From: Quisquiliibacterium transsilvanicum
GTDB taxonomy: Bacteria > Pseudomonadota > Gammaproteobacteria > Burkholderiales > Burkholderiaceae_E
Length of the DNA: 64,000 nucleotides
Reading direction: 5' to 3'
Assembly (NCBI RefSeq): GCF_014202215.1
Contig: NZ_JACHGB010000003.1
Location: 186,001-250,000, forward strand
Under the pieces are notes generated by a model that was given only the letters and a program-made list of their open reading frames with translations, had not been told where the DNA came from and searched no databases. The position numbers and the translations under genes were made by a program. This document shows positions 5,217 to 63,580 of this stretch, piece by piece; the stretch's first letter is position 1, and each line of letters starts with the position of its first letter.

Positions 5217-6047
5217 TCAGCGCCCCGTGAACTGCGGCGCCCGCTTCTCCAGGAAGTGCGCCACGCCCTCCTTGAAGTCGTCGCTGGCCAGGCTCAGGGC
5301 CATCTCGTGGTCGGCGGTCACGTTGGCCTCGGCCAGGCTCTGGAACATGCCGTCCCAGATCTGGCGCTTCATCACGGCCAGCGAGCGCGGTGAGACGGTG
5401 TCCGCCATGGCTTTCAGGTAGTCGCGCGCGGCGTCGATCAGCCGCGCGTCGGGCACCACGCGCTGCACGATGCCCAGCCGCAGCGCCTCGTCGGCGCGCA
5501 CCTTGCGGGCCGAGTACAGCAGGTCGGCGGCGTTGGGCAGTCCGACCAGTCGCGGCAGCGTCCAGCTGATGCCGTGCTCGGCGATCAGGCCGCGCTGGGC
5601 GAAGGCGGTGGTGAACACCGCGCTCTCGGCGGCGAAGCGGAAGTCGCAGAACAGCGACACCACGAAGCCCAGGCCGGCGCAGGGACCGTTGATCGCGCCC
5701 AGGATGGGCTTGGGGATGGCCGGGAAGTAGGTGTTGGGCAGCTGGAAGTCCGGGCGCTGGCTGCCGCCCGCGGGCACGCCGCGCGGTGCAGGTACCTCGT
5801 CGGCGTGGCTCGCGCCCTTGCTGGCCGACAGCCCCGACAGCAGGTTCATGTCGGCGCCCGCGCAGAAGCCGCGGCCGGCGCCGGTGAGCAGGATGGCGCG
5901 CACGCCGTCGTCTGCGGAAGCCTTGTGCATCGCGTCGCGCAGTTCGCCGGCCATCTGCCGGGTCCAGGCGTTGAGGCGGTCGGGACGGTTCAGGGTGATC
6001 GTGGCGATGCGGTCGCGCACGTCGTACAGGATCGCTTCATAGGCCAT
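5217..6047 (-). CDS. Enoyl-CoA hydratase/isomerase family protein
   Basis: 276 aa, full crotonase-fold length. The start MAYEAILYDVRDRIATITLNRP is typical and has AAGGAGGAG upstream. The oxyanion-hole segments are visible: GAGRGFCAGADMNLL (about 56-70) and INGPCAGLGFVVSLFCDFR (about 119-137). The glutamates usually used by hydratases sit around the second block, at TAFAQRGLIAEHGISWTLPRLVG. The family hydrates or isomerises 2-enoyl-CoA in fatty-acid or aromatic catabolism; the exact substrate is not evident. The insert around 75-98 (KGASHADEVPAPRG...) is longer than in FadB-type proteins. No catabolic operon surrounds it. Confidence 0.88.
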   Translation of the reverse strand: MAYEAILYDVRDRIATITLNRPDRLNAWTRQMAGELRDAMHKASADDGVRAILLTGAGRGFCAGADMNLLSGLSASKGASHADEVPAPRGVPAGGSQRPDFQLPNTYFPAIPKPILGAINGPCAGLGFVVSLFCDFRFAAESAVFTTAFAQRGLIAEHGISWTLPRLVGLPNAADLLYSARKVRADEALRLGIVQRVVPDARLIDAARDYLKAMADTVSPRSLAVMKRQIWDGMFQSLAEANVTADHEMALSLASDDFKEGVAHFLEKRAPQFTGR

Positions 6048-45126: not shown

Positions 45127-45323
45127 TGGGTGTACAGCGACAAGATGGCGAAACTGAGGGCGCAGCCAACGGCCAGGCCAACGAAGAACCAGCCGACGGC
45201 CGGCAGGCGCTCATCGGGCTCGCGCCCGGTGAACTGGATGGGCTGCGGGTTGTCCAGCTCGTAGAGGCCGCAGGTGTAGGGGGTGGGGCACTTGGCGTGC
45301 TTGCAGTGGCCGGCGCAGCTCAT
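45123..45323 (-). CDS. Small Cys-rich, C-terminally membrane-anchored phage protein
   Basis: 66 aa. The N-terminus MSCAGHCKHAKCPTPYTCG has four Cys and two His, suggesting a metal-binding knuckle; then a soluble stretch and one membrane helix (about 43-62). It overlaps the genes on both sides by 4 bases. I recognise no family. Confidence 0.7.
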   Translation of the reverse strand: MSCAGHCKHAKCPTPYTCGLYELDNPQPIQFTGREPDERLPAVGWFFVGLAVGCALSFAILSLYTQ

Positions 45324-45448
45324 GCGACCTCCGGGGCCACGCCGCCGGCGATGCCCAGCAGCAGGGCCAGGACCACGGCCACGGCAGGCCAGAACCAGCG
45401 GGGGCGCCCCAGGCGCTCGTACAGCTCTTCGAGCAGGTAGGGATTCAC
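45320..45448 (-). CDS. 42-aa membrane peptide
   Basis: GTG start at 45448 overlapping the stop of the upstream gene (GTGA). MNPYLLEELYERLGRPRWFW precedes a membrane helix (about 21-37). The stop overlaps the next start (ATGA). The overlaps on both sides are the main evidence that it is translated. Function unknown. Confidence 0.65.
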   Translation of the reverse strand: MNPYLLEELYERLGRPRWFWPAVAVVLALLLGIAGGVAPEVA

Positions 45449-45765
45449 AGCGCGGCCTCCTGTGCTGCCAGCTCGGCCTGGCGCCGGATGTCGTGGCTGT
45501 GGCGCTCGTAGTGGCTGGCGATGTCGTCCAGCGCGGGCACGTCCAGGGCCGGCAGGATGTTCAGGCCTTCGTAGATGACGGATTCGACCTTGGCCAGCTC
45601 GTCGTCGCACACGTCGGCGGTGACGGTGACGCGGGCCCCTTCCAGGCCGATGGTCATGAGCCACGTCAAGGTGGCGCTCAGGCCCACGTAGCGCGGGTCC
45701 TGCTTGCTGGTGACTGGGCCCCAGGTGGCGGCATCGCCCGGGCCGACGCGGATGTCTTGGTTCAT
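45445..45765 (-). CDS. Hypothetical protein, first gene of the PL operon
   Basis: 106 aa. No recognised domain: DIRVGPGDAATWGPVTSKQD, a central VTVTADVCDDELAKVESVIYEG, and a helical acidic tail ending ELAAQEAAL. It begins 23 bases after the predicted PL start site and has GGGGTGAG as a ribosome site. As the first early gene it could be an anti-repressor-, Kil- or antitermination-type function, but nothing in the sequence shows this. Confidence 0.7.
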   Translation of the reverse strand: MNQDIRVGPGDAATWGPVTSKQDPRYVGLSATLTWLMTIGLEGARVTVTADVCDDELAKVESVIYEGLNILPALDVPALDDIASHYERHSHDIRRQAELAAQEAAL

Positions 45766-45794
45766 GTCTCACCCCGTTGGTTGTTGATGGGGTG

Positions 45795-45823
45795 ATTACA
45801 CAGCATGTTTACACAAATGTCAA
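45795..45823 (-). promoter_or_regulatory. PL promoter with overlapping repressor operator OL
   Basis: Minus strand: -35 TTGACA (45818-45823), 17-bp spacer, -10 TGTAAT (45795-45800). The operator TTGACATTTGTGTAAACA (45806-45823 read on the minus strand) covers the -35 and spacer. It differs from the PR operator at only two or three of 18 positions, and both promoters share exact -35 and -10 hexamers. Confidence 0.88.
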
Positions 45824-45875
45824 ACGCGACGTTTAGTTTTTGTTGAGCCCAGGGTAAACACCAAATCGTCAGGCG

Positions 45876-45899
45876 AAAAAAAACCCGCCGAAGCGGGTT
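45876..45899 (-). terminator. Rho-independent terminator of the leftward repressor/R-M operon
   Basis: Minus strand: AACCCGC-TTCG-GCGGGTT followed by an eight-base T run. A perfect 7-bp stem with a UUCG loop and U-tract. It lies 18 bases beyond the 74-aa membrane protein gene and just before PL, so it insulates PL from the lysogenic transcript. Confidence 0.95.
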
Positions 45900-45917
45900 G
45901 GATGGGCGGGCGGTGGG

Positions 45918-46142
45918 CTACTCGCAGACTAGGTGCGGCCCAGCCTTGTCGTGTTCCCATCGGCAGTTCTCGTCTGACGACTCTCCCCAGTGAAGCACTG
46001 GGAACGTCAGCAATAGGCCAACCACCAAGACGGCCAGCACCAGGAGCGCGGCATACTCTTTCCAGGGGGCGTCAAGATTGATCTTGGCGTTCAGTAGGAC
46101 GATCAGAGCCCCAAGGCAGGCGAGCCATAGAGCGAGGTGCAT
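45918..46142 (-). CDS. 74-aa two-helix membrane protein at the end of the repressor operon
   Basis: ATG 46142 with GGAGG upstream. Two membrane helices (about 3-19 and 29-50) with a short loop, then a Trp/Glu/His-containing tail (HWGESSDENCRWEHDK). I recognise no family. It follows the methyltransferase after 73 bases and is the last gene before the terminator of the repressor-R-M transcript, so it is probably made in the lysogen. Small membrane proteins in such spots often block DNA entry by other phages; that role is inference. Confidence 0.72.
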   Translation of the reverse strand: MHLALWLACLGALIVLLNAKINLDAPWKEYAALLVLAVLVVGLLLTFPVLHWGESSDENCRWEHDKAGPHLVCE

Positions 46143-46215
46143 GTAACGGCCTCCGGTTGTTTTTACTTCCCCCGATTGTGGCCGCAATCCTGACGCACGG
46201 GACATGCTGGCGCCG

Positions 46216-47802
46216 TCAGGTCGCCAGCGCTTCCTCCAGCAGCGCGAGCTGGGCGTCCTGGTCCTTCTTGCGCAGGCCGGCGATTTCGGCAATGTCGTCG
46301 GCCGGCACGCTGGCCAGCTCCTTCGGTTCCAGCTTGTGCAGGCCCCCGCCATAGACCCGGCCGCTGCCCAGCAGCGACTCGGCCTTGATCGCGTTGAGCG
46401 CACGCCAGACGGCGCGCAGCATTTCCGGGTGGCCCGCCAGGCGCTCGGCCAGCCGGGGCTTCGGGTACAGCATCAGGAAGACGTTGGTGGCGGTGGCCTT
46501 GGACTCGTTGAGGATGAACCGGAACGGCCGCCCGGCGTGGTCGCTGCGGCCCAGGTAGGTGCAGACGATCGGCGCGGCGGGGCGGTCTTCCTGGCCGTAC
46601 CAGACCTTTCTTGACCGGCACAGGTAGCGCGGTGCGACGTGCTCGATGCCGGTCTTCAGGTAGGACCAGAGCGCCGGGTAGTCGCGCTGCACGACCTCTT
46701 CTGGGAGGTTGCAGTTGATCAGGAACAGGCGCTTGTCCAGCAGCGGGACGCCTTGGGCATCGCCCTTGATCTCTTCCGCCTTGACGTGGCGGGTGCTGGG
46801 CAGAACGGGTTGCAGGAACTGCGGAGGCAGCTGCAGCTCCTTGGCCTTGGCCTCGTCGATGATGAAAAAGCCGTTGTCGCCGGTGGCCAGGCCGCGCTTG
46901 ATGGCGAACAGGTCGCCCAGGCGGTAGCCCTCGTGGTCGACCTCAACCTCTGACCGGGGGAAGCGGGTCCATTTCTCGGTTTTCTCCAGGTCCTGCAGGC
47001 CGACGTGCTTCACGGTGGTGGGTGCCTGCAGCGTGCCGCCGTAGCTGAACATCACCTGGTGGTCGGGCGCCGGCTTGCCCTGGCGGAACCACACGACGGC
47101 GGACGACACCAGGGCGTCGTTGAACTGGACATCGTTCGGGTCGAAGCGGTGGATGTGCAGCAGCGTCACCTCGCGCAACAGGTACTGCTTGAGCTTGCGG
47201 CCGTAGTTGACATCCATGAACTCGCTGGGGATGAGCCAGCCGGCGACGCCGTTGGGGGCCATCCAGGTGTGCGACAGGGCCATGAAGTGGCAGTACAGCC
47301 CGGCCAGGCCGCTGAGGCGGATGTGCGCCCTCTCTTGCCCGAGCGCCTGCAGCCGCAGCTTGTCCTCGCCCGCCAGGTGGTGGTGGCGGACATACGGGGG
47401 GTTGCAGATCAGCAGGTTGGGCTTTTCCGCGTCCTGGGCCGGCGGGTCTTGCCGGGTAAAGTCGCCCATGGTGATCTGCAGCGGCGTGCCTTCCCAGAGC
47501 TTGCGCGCGGGCTCGCCGTAGTGCGGGTCGATCTCGAACCCCCGGGCGGCGGCGACCTTGTGGCCGTTGGCGCAGGCCAGCAGCGCCGAATAGAACGAGC
47601 CGGTGCCGATGGCCGGGTCCATGAAGCGGACGGGCTCATGCTTCGGCAGCAGGGACAGGCCATAGGCCAGGATGTCGCGGGCGAGCAGGGTGGGGGTGGC
47701 GAACTGCCCGAGCCGGTTTCTTTCCGGCTGGGTCTTCAGGCCGTCCAGCTCGGCCTGCAGGGCAAGCCGGTCTTCTTCGAGCCTGTCGGCGTTGGCGGTC
47801 AT
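46216..47802 (-). CDS. N6-adenine DNA methyltransferase of a XamI-type type II R-M system
   Basis: 528 aa from ATG 47802. SAM motif I is DPAIGTGSFYSALLA (about 63-77) and catalytic motif IV is NPPY (ICNPPYVRHH, about 135), i.e. gamma-type amino-methyltransferase order. RNRLGQFATP just before motif I is typical. The C-terminal half (about 260-520) is a target-recognition region of the Eco57I/TaqI kind. It modifies adenine, presumably in the same site cut by the adjacent nuclease. It starts one base after the nuclease stop, so expression depends on the nuclease gene being translated first. Confidence 0.9.
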   Translation of the reverse strand: MTANADRLEEDRLALQAELDGLKTQPERNRLGQFATPTLLARDILAYGLSLLPKHEPVRFMDPAIGTGSFYSALLACANGHKVAAARGFEIDPHYGEPARKLWEGTPLQITMGDFTRQDPPAQDAEKPNLLICNPPYVRHHHLAGEDKLRLQALGQERAHIRLSGLAGLYCHFMALSHTWMAPNGVAGWLIPSEFMDVNYGRKLKQYLLREVTLLHIHRFDPNDVQFNDALVSSAVVWFRQGKPAPDHQVMFSYGGTLQAPTTVKHVGLQDLEKTEKWTRFPRSEVEVDHEGYRLGDLFAIKRGLATGDNGFFIIDEAKAKELQLPPQFLQPVLPSTRHVKAEEIKGDAQGVPLLDKRLFLINCNLPEEVVQRDYPALWSYLKTGIEHVAPRYLCRSRKVWYGQEDRPAAPIVCTYLGRSDHAGRPFRFILNESKATATNVFLMLYPKPRLAERLAGHPEMLRAVWRALNAIKAESLLGSGRVYGGGLHKLEPKELASVPADDIAEIAGLRKKDQDAQLALLEEALAT

Positions 47803-47803
47803 T

Positions 47804-48766
47804 TCAGATCCCGAAGTGGGTGAAGTCGTCGATCCGGTGTTCCCAAACCCAGTCAATGCCCTCGGCGGCCTCGTAACCGAGATAGCCGCTGTCGAAGTAG
47901 CCGCAGAGGAACAGGTTGAAGCGGACATTCGCCCCGTAGTTGCTGCGAAGTTGGGCCATTTTCACGGCCTCTTCCTTCCTGCGCTTGTTGGTGTTGGTGA
48001 AGTCGCCGGCCGATTTGGCCTCGAAGAAGATGGGCAGCTCGCCGGCCTTGGCCTTCTTGGGCTTGATGACCGCATCGACCGGGATGTTGACCTCCTGCAC
48101 GCCACCTTCGAGCTTCACCGGGACGTTCATGCGGAAGCTGAAGGTGCCGGGCTTCATCGCGTCGAACTTCACCCCATCGCCACCCGGTTGCTGCGTGTAG
48201 CCCCGGGCTTCAAGCCAGGCCTTGATTGCCGCGAGCTGGCGCTTTTCCTGGGCGTTGCGAATGATCGGATTGGCCACGGCGCCACAGAGCCGGTCGGCGA
48301 CGATGGTGGCCGCGCGGTGGATCTCGGCCTGGTTGGCCGGCTGCTGGCGGCCGATCCAGACGAAGATGTCGGGGTCGGCCATTTTCTCGATGATCTCGCC
48401 AATCTTGACCAGGTGCGTGTCGGCTTCGCAGGCCGACATGCGGACCGGCAATCTTTTGTCCTGCTCCATGCTCTTGACGAGAGTGGCGGACACGCCGGCC
48501 AGCCCTATCAGCCGGTCCACCGCGATCGGCGGGCAGGTGGACATGCGCAGCGTCGGCAAAATCTCGGGGTGCTCTCGCAGCAGGGCCGGCTTGATGTTCG
48601 TCAGGTTGCCGGTGGCCTTCAGCGCGGCTTCGACATCTTTGGTCGTCTGCACCCTGGTTTCCCGAAAGGCCTTGGGTGCGAACTTCATGAACCAGTCGTT
48701 GTACATGTCCACGGACTGGGCGATGTCAGCCTTCCAGAGCTGAGGCTTGTCGAGATTGACGGGCAT
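47804..48766 (-). CDS. XamI-family type II restriction endonuclease
   Basis: 320 aa. The opening NLDKPQLWKADIAQSVDMYN and WFMKFAPKAFRETR are, as I recall, characteristic of the XamI endonuclease family (Pfam 'XamI', site GTCGAC). The PD-(D/E)XK-like site is visible as VDAVIKPKK...ELPIFFEAKSAGDF (about 237-262), i.e. D then E-x-K. It cuts unmethylated DNA at its site. It lies between the repressor gene (49-base gap) and the methyltransferase (1-base gap) in the same direction. The family name is from memory; the nuclease motif and the partner support it. Confidence 0.8.
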   Translation of the reverse strand: MPVNLDKPQLWKADIAQSVDMYNDWFMKFAPKAFRETRVQTTKDVEAALKATGNLTNIKPALLREHPEILPTLRMSTCPPIAVDRLIGLAGVSATLVKSMEQDKRLPVRMSACEADTHLVKIGEIIEKMADPDIFVWIGRQQPANQAEIHRAATIVADRLCGAVANPIIRNAQEKRQLAAIKAWLEARGYTQQPGGDGVKFDAMKPGTFSFRMNVPVKLEGGVQEVNIPVDAVIKPKKAKAGELPIFFEAKSAGDFTNTNKRRKEEAVKMAQLRSNYGANVRFNLFLCGYFDSGYLGYEAAEGIDWVWEHRIDDFTHFGI

Positions 48767-48815
48767 TGTTCTCCTTCCTGCGGCCGGGTCCGGCCTTTCT
48801 TTGTGTGGCGGCGCG

Positions 48816-49475
48816 TTACCTGCGTCGGTATTTCCGGTGTTCGACCATGGTGCCCACGATCCTGATGGGCGTCACGTCTGACCGCATCGAAGGGTAGTCC
48901 TCATTCAGCGGGATCAGCTCGAACACCATGTCGCCGCGATCGTTCACCCCGCGCGGCCGGTACTTTTTGAAGGTGGCCTCTTCCTCGCCGTTCTTGGCCA
49001 CCACAAAGTCGCCGGGCTGGGGGGCGATGGTCGGGTCGATGATGACGCGATCGCCCGGCTTGAACTCGGGCAGCATCGAGTCGCCCTTGATCTCCAGCGC
49101 GAAGGCGCTGCTGGACAAATCCAGGTCGGTCATCAGCCAGTCGTCGGCGTCGCCGACCACGTAGGGGTCTGAGGCCTCGGTCCAGATCCCGGCCTGCACG
49201 TAGCTGATGAGCGGGACGCGGCTGGTGCCAAGCTCTGCCGGGGCCACGTTCGCCCCGTCGGCAAGGGCCATGGGTCCTTTCCCGGTGTCAAGCCAGGATG
49301 CAGAGCAGCCGATGGTTCGCTGAGCTAGCAACAGCCCCTGCTTGGACACGCCCCTGGTTTCCCAGTTGTGCACGGTCTGCGAGGAAGTGTTCAGCGCCCG
49401 CGCGAGTGCGGCCTGTCCCTGGATCTTCTTGAGTTCTTTGGCCGCGTGGTACAGCCGTTCCATTTGCGGGTGCAT
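48816..49475 (-). CDS. cI: Phage repressor, CI/LexA-type with S24 peptidase domain
   Basis: 219 aa. N-terminal helix-turn-helix (about 20-43, QAALARALNTSSQTVHNWET), linker, then an S24 self-cleavage domain: Ala95-Gly96 cleavage site (YVQAGIW), Ser133 in KGDSMLPEF, Lys170 in ATFKKY. RecA filaments should trigger cleavage and prophage induction. It represses PL and PR through the operators at 45.8 and 49.5 kb. It is the first gene of a leftward transcript that reads on into the R-M genes. MERLYH (residue 5) is an alternative start. Confidence 0.93.
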   Translation of the reverse strand: MHPQMERLYHAAKELKKIQGQAALARALNTSSQTVHNWETRGVSKQGLLLAQRTIGCSASWLDTGKGPMALADGANVAPAELGTSRVPLISYVQAGIWTEASDPYVVGDADDWLMTDLDLSSSAFALEIKGDSMLPEFKPGDRVIIDPTIAPQPGDFVVAKNGEEEATFKKYRPRGVNDRGDMVFELIPLNEDYPSMRSDVTPIRIVGTMVEHRKYRRR

Positions 49476-49507
49476 GACCGCATTCTCGTTGAAGTAAACA
49501 TTCTGTT

Positions 49508-49536
49508 GTTATACAGAGTGTTGACATCTTTGTAAA
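49508..49536 (-). promoter_or_regulatory. Repressor-gene promoter (PRM-like)
   Basis: Minus strand: -35 TTTACA (49531-49536), 17-bp spacer, -10 TATAAC (49508-49513). The -35 lies inside the 22-bp operator shared with PR, so the repressor can tune its own synthesis as in lambda. A further operator-like half site GTAAACA is at 49494-49500, near the repressor start. Confidence 0.8.
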
Positions 49537-49539
49537 CAC
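49518..49539. promoter_or_regulatory. Repressor operator OR (imperfect 22-bp palindrome)
   Basis: GTGTTGACATC / TTTGTAAACAC: the outer arms GTGTT and AACAC and inner ACA and TGT match on the opposite strand. It overlaps the -35 boxes of both the rightward and leftward promoters, and its core recurs at PL (45806-45823). Confidence 0.82.
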
Positions 49540-49549
49540 CGTGTGTAAT
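49521..49549 (+). promoter_or_regulatory. PR promoter
   Basis: -35 TTGACA (49521-49526), 17-bp spacer, -10 TGTAAT (49544-49549). The expected start site is near 49556, two bases before the Cro-like ATG at 49558. Confidence 0.88.
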
Positions 49550-49557
49550 TCGTGCCC

Positions 49558-49770
49558 ATGAGCACACCCCACACACCCCAGATTGAAGAAGATCGAAAGC
49601 TGATTCGCCGCCTGGGCGGCCCGTCCAAGCTGGCCAAAACGCTGGGCTACAGCAAACCAGGCAGCGTCCAGCGCATTCAGAACTGGACAGTCCGCGGCAT
49701 TCCAGCAGCAGTCAAGGTTGCTCACCCCGACATCTTTCTGGGGAGCAAGCCGGTGGCAGAAAGCGTCTGA
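49558..49770 (+). CDS. Cro-like helix-turn-helix regulator
   Basis: 70 aa. IRRLGGPSKLAKTLGYSKPG followed by SVQRIQNWTVRGIPAAVKV is a Cro/YdaS-type helix-turn-helix. It is the first gene of the PR transcript, divergent from cI, the classical Cro position. No ribosome site can exist if transcription starts at 49556, so the mRNA may be leaderless. An in-frame GTG at 49552 also lies within the promoter spacer side and is unlikely. Confidence 0.85.
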   Translation: MSTPHTPQIEEDRKLIRRLGGPSKLAKTLGYSKPGSVQRIQNWTVRGIPAAVKVAHPDIFLGSKPVAESV

Positions 49771-49772
49771 TC

Positions 49773-50681
49773 ATGGACGCGATCGACCTTTTCGCCGGCG
49801 CCGGCGGATTCAGTACCGGCGCGCGCATGGCTGGCGCGAATGTCGTCTGGGCCGCCAACCACTGGCCGGCCGCTGTCGAGGTTCATGCCAACAACCACCC
49901 CGACACGCTGCACATCTGCCAAGACCTGCAGCAAGCCGACTGGACACAGGTCCCCGCGCACGACCTGCTGATGGCGTCACCGGCTTGCCAGGGGCACAGC
50001 CGAGCCCGTGGCAAGGAGCGCCCGCACCACGACGCACAGCGCTCGACCGCGTGGGCGGTTGTGTCAGCCGCCGAACACCACCGCCCGGCGTTCTTCCTGG
50101 TCGAGAACGTGCCCGAGTTCGCAAAGTGGGAGCTGTACCCGGCGTGGTGCGCCGCCATGACCGCCCTGGGCTACGCAATGACGCCGATGGTGCTGGACGC
50201 AGCCGATCACGGTGTAGCGCAGCACAGGCGCCGCCTGTTCATTGTCGGCACCCGGTCAAGGCATCCGATTGCGCTGAAGCTGCCCAGGCTGAGCCACGTG
50301 GGCGCCGGCACGCTGATCGACTTCGAGGGCGGCAAGTGGTCGCCGATTGAACGACCGGGGCGATCAGCCGCCACGCTGGCGCGCATCGCCGAGGGCCGGC
50401 GCGTGTGTGGTCCGCGGTTCCTGACGGCCTATTACGGCAACGAGCGGGGCGGCCGCAGCCTTGAGCGCCCGGTCGGCACCATCACCACGCGCGACCGATG
50501 GGCAGTGATCGACGGCGACCGCATGCGCATGCTCAACGTGCAGGAATGTCGGCGCGCGATGGGCTTCCCTGACGACTACCAGCTGCCGCACCGCGCGAAG
50601 GACGCCATGCACATGCTCGGCAACGCTGTGGTGCCGCCGGTGGCGCGCGATGTCATCAACGCCCTGAAGGTGGCGGCGTAA
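49773..50681 (+). CDS. C5-cytosine DNA methyltransferase (orphan)
   Basis: 302 aa. Motif I DLFAGAGGFSTGARMAG (5-21), motif IV ASPACQGHS with the catalytic Cys (SPACQ instead of the common PPCQ), motif VI FFLVENVPEF, motif VIII QHRRRLFIVG, motif X HMLGNAVVPPVA. The target-recognition region (about 185-245) is short. No cognate nuclease is adjacent. It is an early gene 2 bases after the Cro-like gene; it may protect phage DNA from host restriction or alter regulation. The target sequence is unknown. Confidence 0.93.
   Translation: MDAIDLFAGAGGFSTGARMAGANVVWAANHWPAAVEVHANNHPDTLHICQDLQQADWTQVPAHDLLMASPACQGHSRARGKERPHHDAQRSTAWAVVSAAEHHRPAFFLVENVPEFAKWELYPAWCAAMTALGYAMTPMVLDAADHGVAQHRRRLFIVGTRSRHPIALKLPRLSHVGAGTLIDFEGGKWSPIERPGRSAATLARIAEGRRVCGPRFLTAYYGNERGGRSLERPVGTITTRDRWAVIDGDRMRMLNVQECRRAMGFPDDYQLPHRAKDAMHMLGNAVVPPVARDVINALKVAA

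Positions 50682-62585: not shown

Positions 62586-63580
<995 letters not shown>

Follow-up and report, generated by a model that had tools for sequence, protein, structure and literature searches.

A probable lysogen defence cassette with a XamI-family restriction-modification module in the repressor operon of a lambda-like prophage

A restriction-modification module behind the prophage repressor gene

We analyzed a 64,000-nucleotide stretch of the genome of Quisquiliibacterium transsilvanicum (NCBI RefSeq assembly GCF_014202215.1, contig NZ_JACHGB010000003.1, positions 186,001 to 250,000 of the forward strand; hereafter the window), and in particular the repressor operon of a lambda-like prophage that lies partly within it. 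The operon contains the genes for a cI repressor, a XamI-family restriction endonuclease (R), an Eco57I-type adenine DNA methyltransferase (M) and a small hydrophobic protein (S). We consider it likely that this operon is a lysogen defence cassette, made up of an older cI-S unit and an inserted XamI-family restriction-modification (R-M) module that would now be under the control of the repressor promoter. An earlier note on this DNA had proposed a cassette of this kind, and the proposal is well supported by the promoter and terminator anatomy and by the presence of other defence-type genes at the same place in related phages.

The four leftward genes in the earlier note (cI, a XamI-type R, an adenine M and a 74-amino-acid S), with gaps of 49 (cI-R), 1 (R-M) and 73 (M-S) bases, are borne out by the open reading frame (ORF) coordinates and by the family matches (Table 1). 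The start of M was set at 47802, 1 base after R; the ORF listing also has an upstream ATG at 47928. R, M and S occupy the interval between cI and the PL-like promoter, on the strand of cI. The note had also placed a terminator just ahead of PL, and one was found there on the minus strand, starting 18 bases past the S stop codon and stopping 58 bases short of the PL -35 box. No minus-strand terminator was found between cI and S in the terminator scan.

In the mechanism that we propose, cI, R, M and S would be transcribed leftward from PRM, ending at the terminator before PL, and the insertion of a complete type II R-M module between cI and S of the old unit would have placed it under the control of that promoter. 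All four proteins would be produced together in the lysogen; M would modify host and prophage DNA, R would cut unmodified incoming phage DNA, and S, as a small membrane protein, would possibly bar the entry of related phages. Upon induction, cI would be cleaved, Cro would take over and the cassette would be turned off. We infer the pattern of transcription, the restriction and protection, the membrane site and role of S, the shut-off by Cro and the direction of the insertion; that expression would be limited to the silent prophage and reduced on induction follows from the logic of lambda. The repressor has Ala95-Gly96, Ser133 and Lys161, an arrangement that we take to be the LexA-type self-cleavage layout, and it would presumably cleave itself.

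Table 1. Features of the cI-R-M-S operon and of related loci. Positions are those of the window unless a locus is named; L numbers denote loci in other contigs, and distances are from the cI stop codon.
Feature	Position	Strand	Basis or remark
cI repressor, 219 aa (amino acids)	48816-49475	-	Peptidase_S24 domain (Pfam 1.2e-20)
R, XamI-family restriction endonuclease, 320 aa	47804-48766	-	Pfam, PADLOC
M, Eco57I-type adenine DNA methyltransferase, 528 aa	46216-47802	-	Pfam, PADLOC, alignment
S, 74-aa protein, two hydrophobic helices	45918-46142	-	ORF and predicted structure
Intrinsic terminator closing the cI-R-M-S operon	45882-45899	-	terminator scan
cro-like DNA-binding protein, 72 aa, divergent from cI	49552-49770	+	phrog_8008 6e-19; Pfam below cut-off
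PRM-like promoter of cI-R-M-S	49508-49536	-	TTTACA-17-TATAAC, 10/12 consensus positions; sequence only
PR-like promoter toward cro, overlaps PRM	49521-49549	+	TTGACA-17-TGTAAT
PL-like promoter	45795-45823	-	TTGACA-17-TGTAAT
Operator words GTAAACA (two), PRM/PR region	49494-49500, 49532-49538		word count
Operator words GTAAACA (two), PL region	45806-45812, 45854-45860	-, +	word count
Second R-M module (Eco57I-type methyltransferase and BsuBI/PstI endonuclease)	L119:3701-6141		
Slot match, methyltransferase	L119, 5 bases		PADLOC
Slot match, PDC-S42	L135, -3 bases		PADLOC
Slot match, PDC-S42	L161, 101 bases		PADLOC
Slot match, PDC-S55	L188, 0 bases		PADLOC
Slot match, PD-Lambda-1	L178, 711 bases		PADLOC
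Slot match, PD-Lambda-5_A	L194, 701 bases		PADLOC
Slot match, Dam-like methyltransferase	L179, 1196 bases		PADLOC
Ribbon-helix-helix-like ORF directly before R	L002, L018, L029, L033, L041, L050, L051, L061, L064-L067, L083-L091, L094		

Promoters and operators

As judged by consensus matches, the cassette is bounded by PR and PL, which have a common operator word, and would be driven from PRM. The PR- and PL-like sites are identical at 24 of 29 bases, and the pattern common to them, which was derived from these very two sites, occurs twice in the window (0.00 expected) and never in 100 shuffles. The word GTAAACA has five copies in the 64 kb compared to 0.42 expected; four are at the two control regions and one is a stray at 62873. 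The shared operator word and the promoter matches therefore point to a cassette that lies between two lytic promoters and depends on the promoter of the repressor itself.

We scanned positions 45760-49560 for matches to the sigma-70 consensus. On the minus strand, PRM and PL were the only sites scoring at least 9/12; on the plus strand there was PR, plus one 9/12 site at 45808-45837. A single leftward promoter for the operon, as the earlier note had it, is thus well supported by PRM as the sole upstream site and by the terminator anatomy. Independent promoters for the R-M genes would have argued against the note's proposal, and no minus-strand site of at least 9/12 lies inside cI, R, M or S in this consensus scan, which may miss non-consensus sites. 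A stricter scan picked up none of PRM, PR and PL because it required A2 and T6 of the second hexamer.

Folding around the cI-R and M-S gaps was no better than that of shuffled sequences (z of 0.37 and 0.14), and a regulatory RNA in the gaps was rejected on this ground. The cI-R gap has a terminator-like stem-loop on the plus strand (48782-48795), which would be active on rightward transcripts only.

The R and M enzymes

R matches the Pfam RE_XamI profile over its full length (PF09572, E = 2.1e-131, residues 54-308 against profile positions 2-256 of 256). Its residues D231 and E249-A-K251 are invariant in all 40 aligned chosen homologues, an alignment that excluded the locus with a stop codon inside its R gene (L077). 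M matches Pfam Eco57I (7.1e-11) and the PADLOC type II methyltransferase model (1.5e-141), and its NPPY motif (134-137) is invariant in 17 of 17 aligned chosen homologues. Since the catalytic motifs are invariant in both proteins, both look intact as enzymes. The 1-base spacing of R and M may couple their translation and keep the two enzymes in step.

Among solved structures, the BseCI methylase was the sole match to M at the limit used (6.6e-7), and it is distant. R had no relative among them by sequence (best E 0.11, unrelated), and its AlphaFold2 model (predicted local distance difference test score, pLDDT, of 80) gave nothing significant by fold against the PDB, with the best E value (0.61) to a type IIB R-M protein followed by TnsA. 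We presume the nuclease fold class of R from its motif pattern. RexA and RexB were not among the families given for R, M and S by Pfam, PADLOC and PHROGs (for M, among 25 of the 28 PADLOC families).

The recognition site of XamI, which we take to be GTCGAC, is found twice in the 41-kb prophage compared to 12.2 times expected. Seven other palindromes (ATCGAT, GAGCTC, TCGCGA, CTCGAG and three more) are more strongly avoided, placing GTCGAC at rank 8 of 35; we rejected its avoidance as a sign of self-restriction, as it reads as general palindrome avoidance. Six 6-bp palindromes (ATCGAT, GAGCTC, TCGCGA, CTCGAG, TTCGAA and AGATCT), each expected 5-16 times, are absent from the prophage, and the host flank differs in this respect.

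The R-M module in other genomes

We scanned relatives of R in the best 80 of 419 genome-contig stretches and in 14 viral-contig loci, 94 in all. One of the viral contigs (L082) carries the same prophage, with 99-100% identity in every gene compared, leaving 93 other loci. At 90 of the 93, M is the gene next after R; the remaining three (L030, L056, L058) are truncated by the contig end, at or within R. The cI of the window was found at none of the 93, indicating that the R-M module travels without cI. Relatives of R were also present in 12 of 72,556 plasmid records and in none of 50,697 phage records. At seven loci (L085, L086, L088-L091, L094), a XamI-type R-M module follows a large ORF that by eye resembles a terminase large subunit, which indicates that it enters phages at places other than the lysogeny region as well.

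A small ribbon-helix-helix-like ORF lies directly before R at 22 of the 94 loci, with the same prophage counted as a miss, and was not found in the window. The fold is a reading of the sequence; the match to Pfam Antitox_RHH (0.17) is below threshold. We regard the ORF as a candidate control protein of the XamI-type R-M family. In an 88-taxon tree of M, the window belongs to a clade of 21 (support 0.909), and 14 of the 20 other members carry this ORF; in its closest group, of 8 (support 1.0), 3 of the 7 others do. It is plausible that the native regulator of the module was lost in the prophage of the window.

These distributions bear on whether R and M are independent cargo with their own promoter, tolerated because the cI-PL interval holds nothing essential, with co-expression with cI being incidental. 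The module must be expressible elsewhere, since the R-M family occurs at 93 loci without this cI, and among viral loci it is found by eye at other positions too. Against this stand the lack of a minus-strand promoter-like site of at least 9/12 within the four genes and the absence from the window of the regulator-like ORF, and we think it unlikely that the module is such independent cargo.

Control of the R-M module might have passed to the lysis-lysogeny switch of the phage, with autoregulation of cI at PRM and repression by Cro replacing a lost ribbon-helix-helix-like regulator. We offer this as a tentative idea that may well prove wrong. If true, R and M would be made only once the phage is committed to lysogeny and would vanish on induction, and the prophage repressor would substitute for an R-M control protein. 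The gene order of the operon raises the question of how a new lysogen, with an unmodified chromosome, survives when the nuclease gene is ahead of the methyltransferase gene on a transcript that would begin only with lysogeny.

Protein S and the order of assembly

A model of low confidence (pLDDT 69) gives S hydrophobic helices at residues 2-20 and 28-54, with a short beta hairpin at the C terminus that bears two cysteines, and S is predicted to be in the membrane. Its ATG is preceded, by eye, by GGAGG. At the limits used, Pfam, PADLOC and PHROGs gave no match to S, and the one NCBIfam model (0.024) was below cut-off. Among 74 genomes of the family and 399 of the order, S was found in one each time, the window's own genome, and it was in none of 50,697 phage records. 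In viral contigs, searches with S alone or with an alignment (A1) found it in two phages only, the window's own prophage and a related phage (L122).

For comparison of repressor regions, we kept 80 of 87 viral-contig loci with relatives of cI. In L122, cI is 60%, the replication gene 59%, erf 76% and S 61% identical to those of the window. There, S begins 1 base past the cI stop. Behind S comes a stem-loop (by eye) with the core AACCCGCTTCGGCGGGTT, which is shared with the terminator of the window; R and M are absent from the locus DNA examined. Because S is directly behind cI in L122 without R-M, it probably does not belong to the R-M cargo, and cI-S is probably the older unit. We think that R-M was probably inserted between cI and S rather than lost from L122, since no other cI locus examined carries a XamI-type R-M module.

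A further phage (L121) has a 77-amino-acid ORF with two hydrophobic segments that overlaps the cI stop and has the C-terminal motif C..E.DK.G...VC, as in S. Single pairwise comparisons with S gave E values of 7e-5 and 6e-6. A profile search gave 0.57, and a match in L124 that we took as chance scored better (0.015). We consider the L121 ORF a probable homologue of S.

That S is a superinfection-exclusion protein is a guess. S could instead act as a companion to cI, perhaps in the membrane, where it would adjust the choice between lysis and lysogeny, as has been suggested for RexA in lambda. Its place directly behind cI in L122 and the probable homologue in L121, both without R-M, fit such a partner; however, in several related phages other small hydrophobic or lipoprotein-like proteins replace S, which fits variable exclusion factors better, and we hold the companion role to be possible and somewhat doubtful.

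The slot behind cI in related phages

The same slot of a related phage (L119, cI 66% identical) holds a different R-M system. A 496-amino-acid Eco57I-type methyltransferase lies 4-5 bases beyond cI, and next to it is a BsuBI/PstI endonuclease (1.4e-62 and 1.1e-55). Then come a stem-loop that has a T-run and a PL-like site, TTGACT-17-TATACT (both by eye).

We surveyed the slot in 54 distinct loci, from a pool of the 80 cI loci plus L199. Omitted were the window's prophage (L118), loci with fewer than 900 bases after cI, near-duplicates and loci with no usable strong cI match. ORFs of at least 60 amino acids were picked mechanically, longest first, from the slot and, as a control, from the cro side, and scanned with PADLOC at E 1e-8; slot ORFs were obtained from 47 of the 54 loci and control ORFs from 45, with median lengths of 146 and 147 amino acids. 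Seven of 91 slot ORFs, at seven loci, had PADLOC matches (Table 1), compared to 0 of 95 on the cro side (Fisher p = 0.006 when counted by ORF and 0.013 when counted by locus). For ORFs of at least 180 amino acids, the counts were 7 of 33 and 0 of 39 (p = 0.003). Chosen large slot ORFs were scanned ahead of the full survey, and 10 further slot ORFs had no PADLOC match. Both sets include spurious ORFs, and in the prophage of the window, picking of this kind failed to catch R and S. Neither set contains the window, whose cro-side C5-cytosine methyltransferase matches PADLOC and would count as a control hit.

The slot is also occupied by small proteins that have between one and three hydrophobic segments (L117, L123, L124, L131) and by ORFs with lipoprotein-like starts, by eye a hydrophobic stretch and then a cysteine, that overlap or abut the cI stop (L116, L143, L185, L199). 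None of the occupants in L116, L117, L124, L131, L143 and L199 reaches the Pfam cut-off. A 663-amino-acid ORF at L138:7554-9545, 119 bases behind a cI whose C-terminal part is 67% identical, has no Pfam or PADLOC match at the limits used and is a candidate for unknown slot cargo. The cI-PL slot of this phage group is a place to seek unknown defence genes.

The survey also bears on the possibility that the R-M module is mainly an addiction module: loss of the prophage would dilute M, residual R would cut the chromosome, and lysogens would stay uncured. Type II R-M modules are known to act in this way, and addiction is a real rival for any of them, and compatible with defence. In the window, R and M were found to have neither a promoter nor a regulator ORF of their own, and the module is plasmid-borne as well, which would suit this role. 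Yet the PDC-S42, PD-Lambda-1, PDC-S55 and PD-Lambda-5_A matches in the slot of relatives point to defence as the theme, and an integrated prophage is stable already; addiction as the main function seems to us improbable.

Several observations weigh against the lysogen defence cassette as we describe it. R is ahead of M, which is awkward where host DNA needs modification before cutting. The scan for promoters used a sigma-70 consensus and the host is 70% GC (0.702 in the left 39 kb of the window); a non-consensus promoter within cI or before R could therefore be missed. A firm S-like neighbour of cI was found in just one other phage (L122), and the profile match in L121 is weak. Three of the seven slot matches (PDC-S42 twice and PDC-S55) are to models of candidate systems that are not validated, and the L179 methyltransferase may fall beyond the slot and may be an orphan; without it the counts are 6 of 91 and 0 of 95 (p = 0.013). 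Mechanical picking also skipped real genes, for example S in L122 and the endonuclease in L119.

Relation to known systems

In lambda, rexA and rexB are downstream of cI in a cI-rexA-rexB operon. The arrangement in the window is alike in having defence genes behind cI, and the cassette sits in the rexAB position. Published reports describe further cases. The RexABpp operon of a Pseudomonas putida prophage opens with a CI-like repressor gene, with two genes between (PMC12894663). The cargo in the window differs from that of lambda and RexABpp in being a type II R-M module and an unrelated small hydrophobic protein. In the Salmonella prophage BTP1, bstA is behind cI (PMC7067206, PMC8585504) and is expressed in the lysogen from the cI promoter (PMC7067206), and the interval between the repressor gene and n in lambdoid phages is described as a mosaic accessory site, with rexAB among the genes found there (PMC7067206, PMC8585504). 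The cI-bstA arrangement shares the defence gene behind cI; BstA acts by abortive infection and is accompanied by the self-immunity element aba, whereas in the window self-protection would come from M.

Complete R-M modules are also carried by other phages, namely EcoRII in phage KL3 (PMC3091744) and, judging by the title of a report, Sau42I in phi42. K139-like prophages of Vibrionaceae have a defence hotspot between cI and the integrase gene (PMC9122126); it shares variable defence cargo beside cI and differs in that these are P2-related phages and the interval is another one. Superinfection-exclusion lipoproteins occur in the lysogeny module, according to a further report (PMC3952083).

Relatives of the XamI family (PF09572) share a full-length R followed by an Eco57I-type M, and differ from the window in lacking its cI (0 of 93) and, in 22 of 94 loci, in having the ribbon-helix-helix-like ORF that the window lacks. 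Judging by titles and the beginnings of abstracts, none of the literature matches listed had R-M as cargo on a cI transcript. A defence cassette in a repressor operon is a known kind of arrangement, and the operon in the window is a new example. It extends the idea of a rex position from abortive-infection genes to classical R-M, with two R-M families in one slot of related phages.

Other observations on the prophage

The prophage spans 39774-80757 on the scale of the window, past the window end, with ends taken from viral contig coordinates. No direct repeat of at least 14 bases linked the two prophage ends in the ends searched.

Just behind PL is a small ORF (~45320-45448, minus strand) that starts with MNPYLLEELYERLGRPRW and has, by eye, a hydrophobic C-terminal half; it is also found in L122 (~5217-5342).

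An orphan-looking C5-cytosine methyltransferase gene (49773-50681, plus strand; Pfam 2.6e-50) lies directly behind cro on the lytic transcript, and its DNA is 69% alike to one in Acidovorax phage Acica. The lysogenic side of the switch thus carries an adenine R-M module and the lytic side a cytosine methylase.

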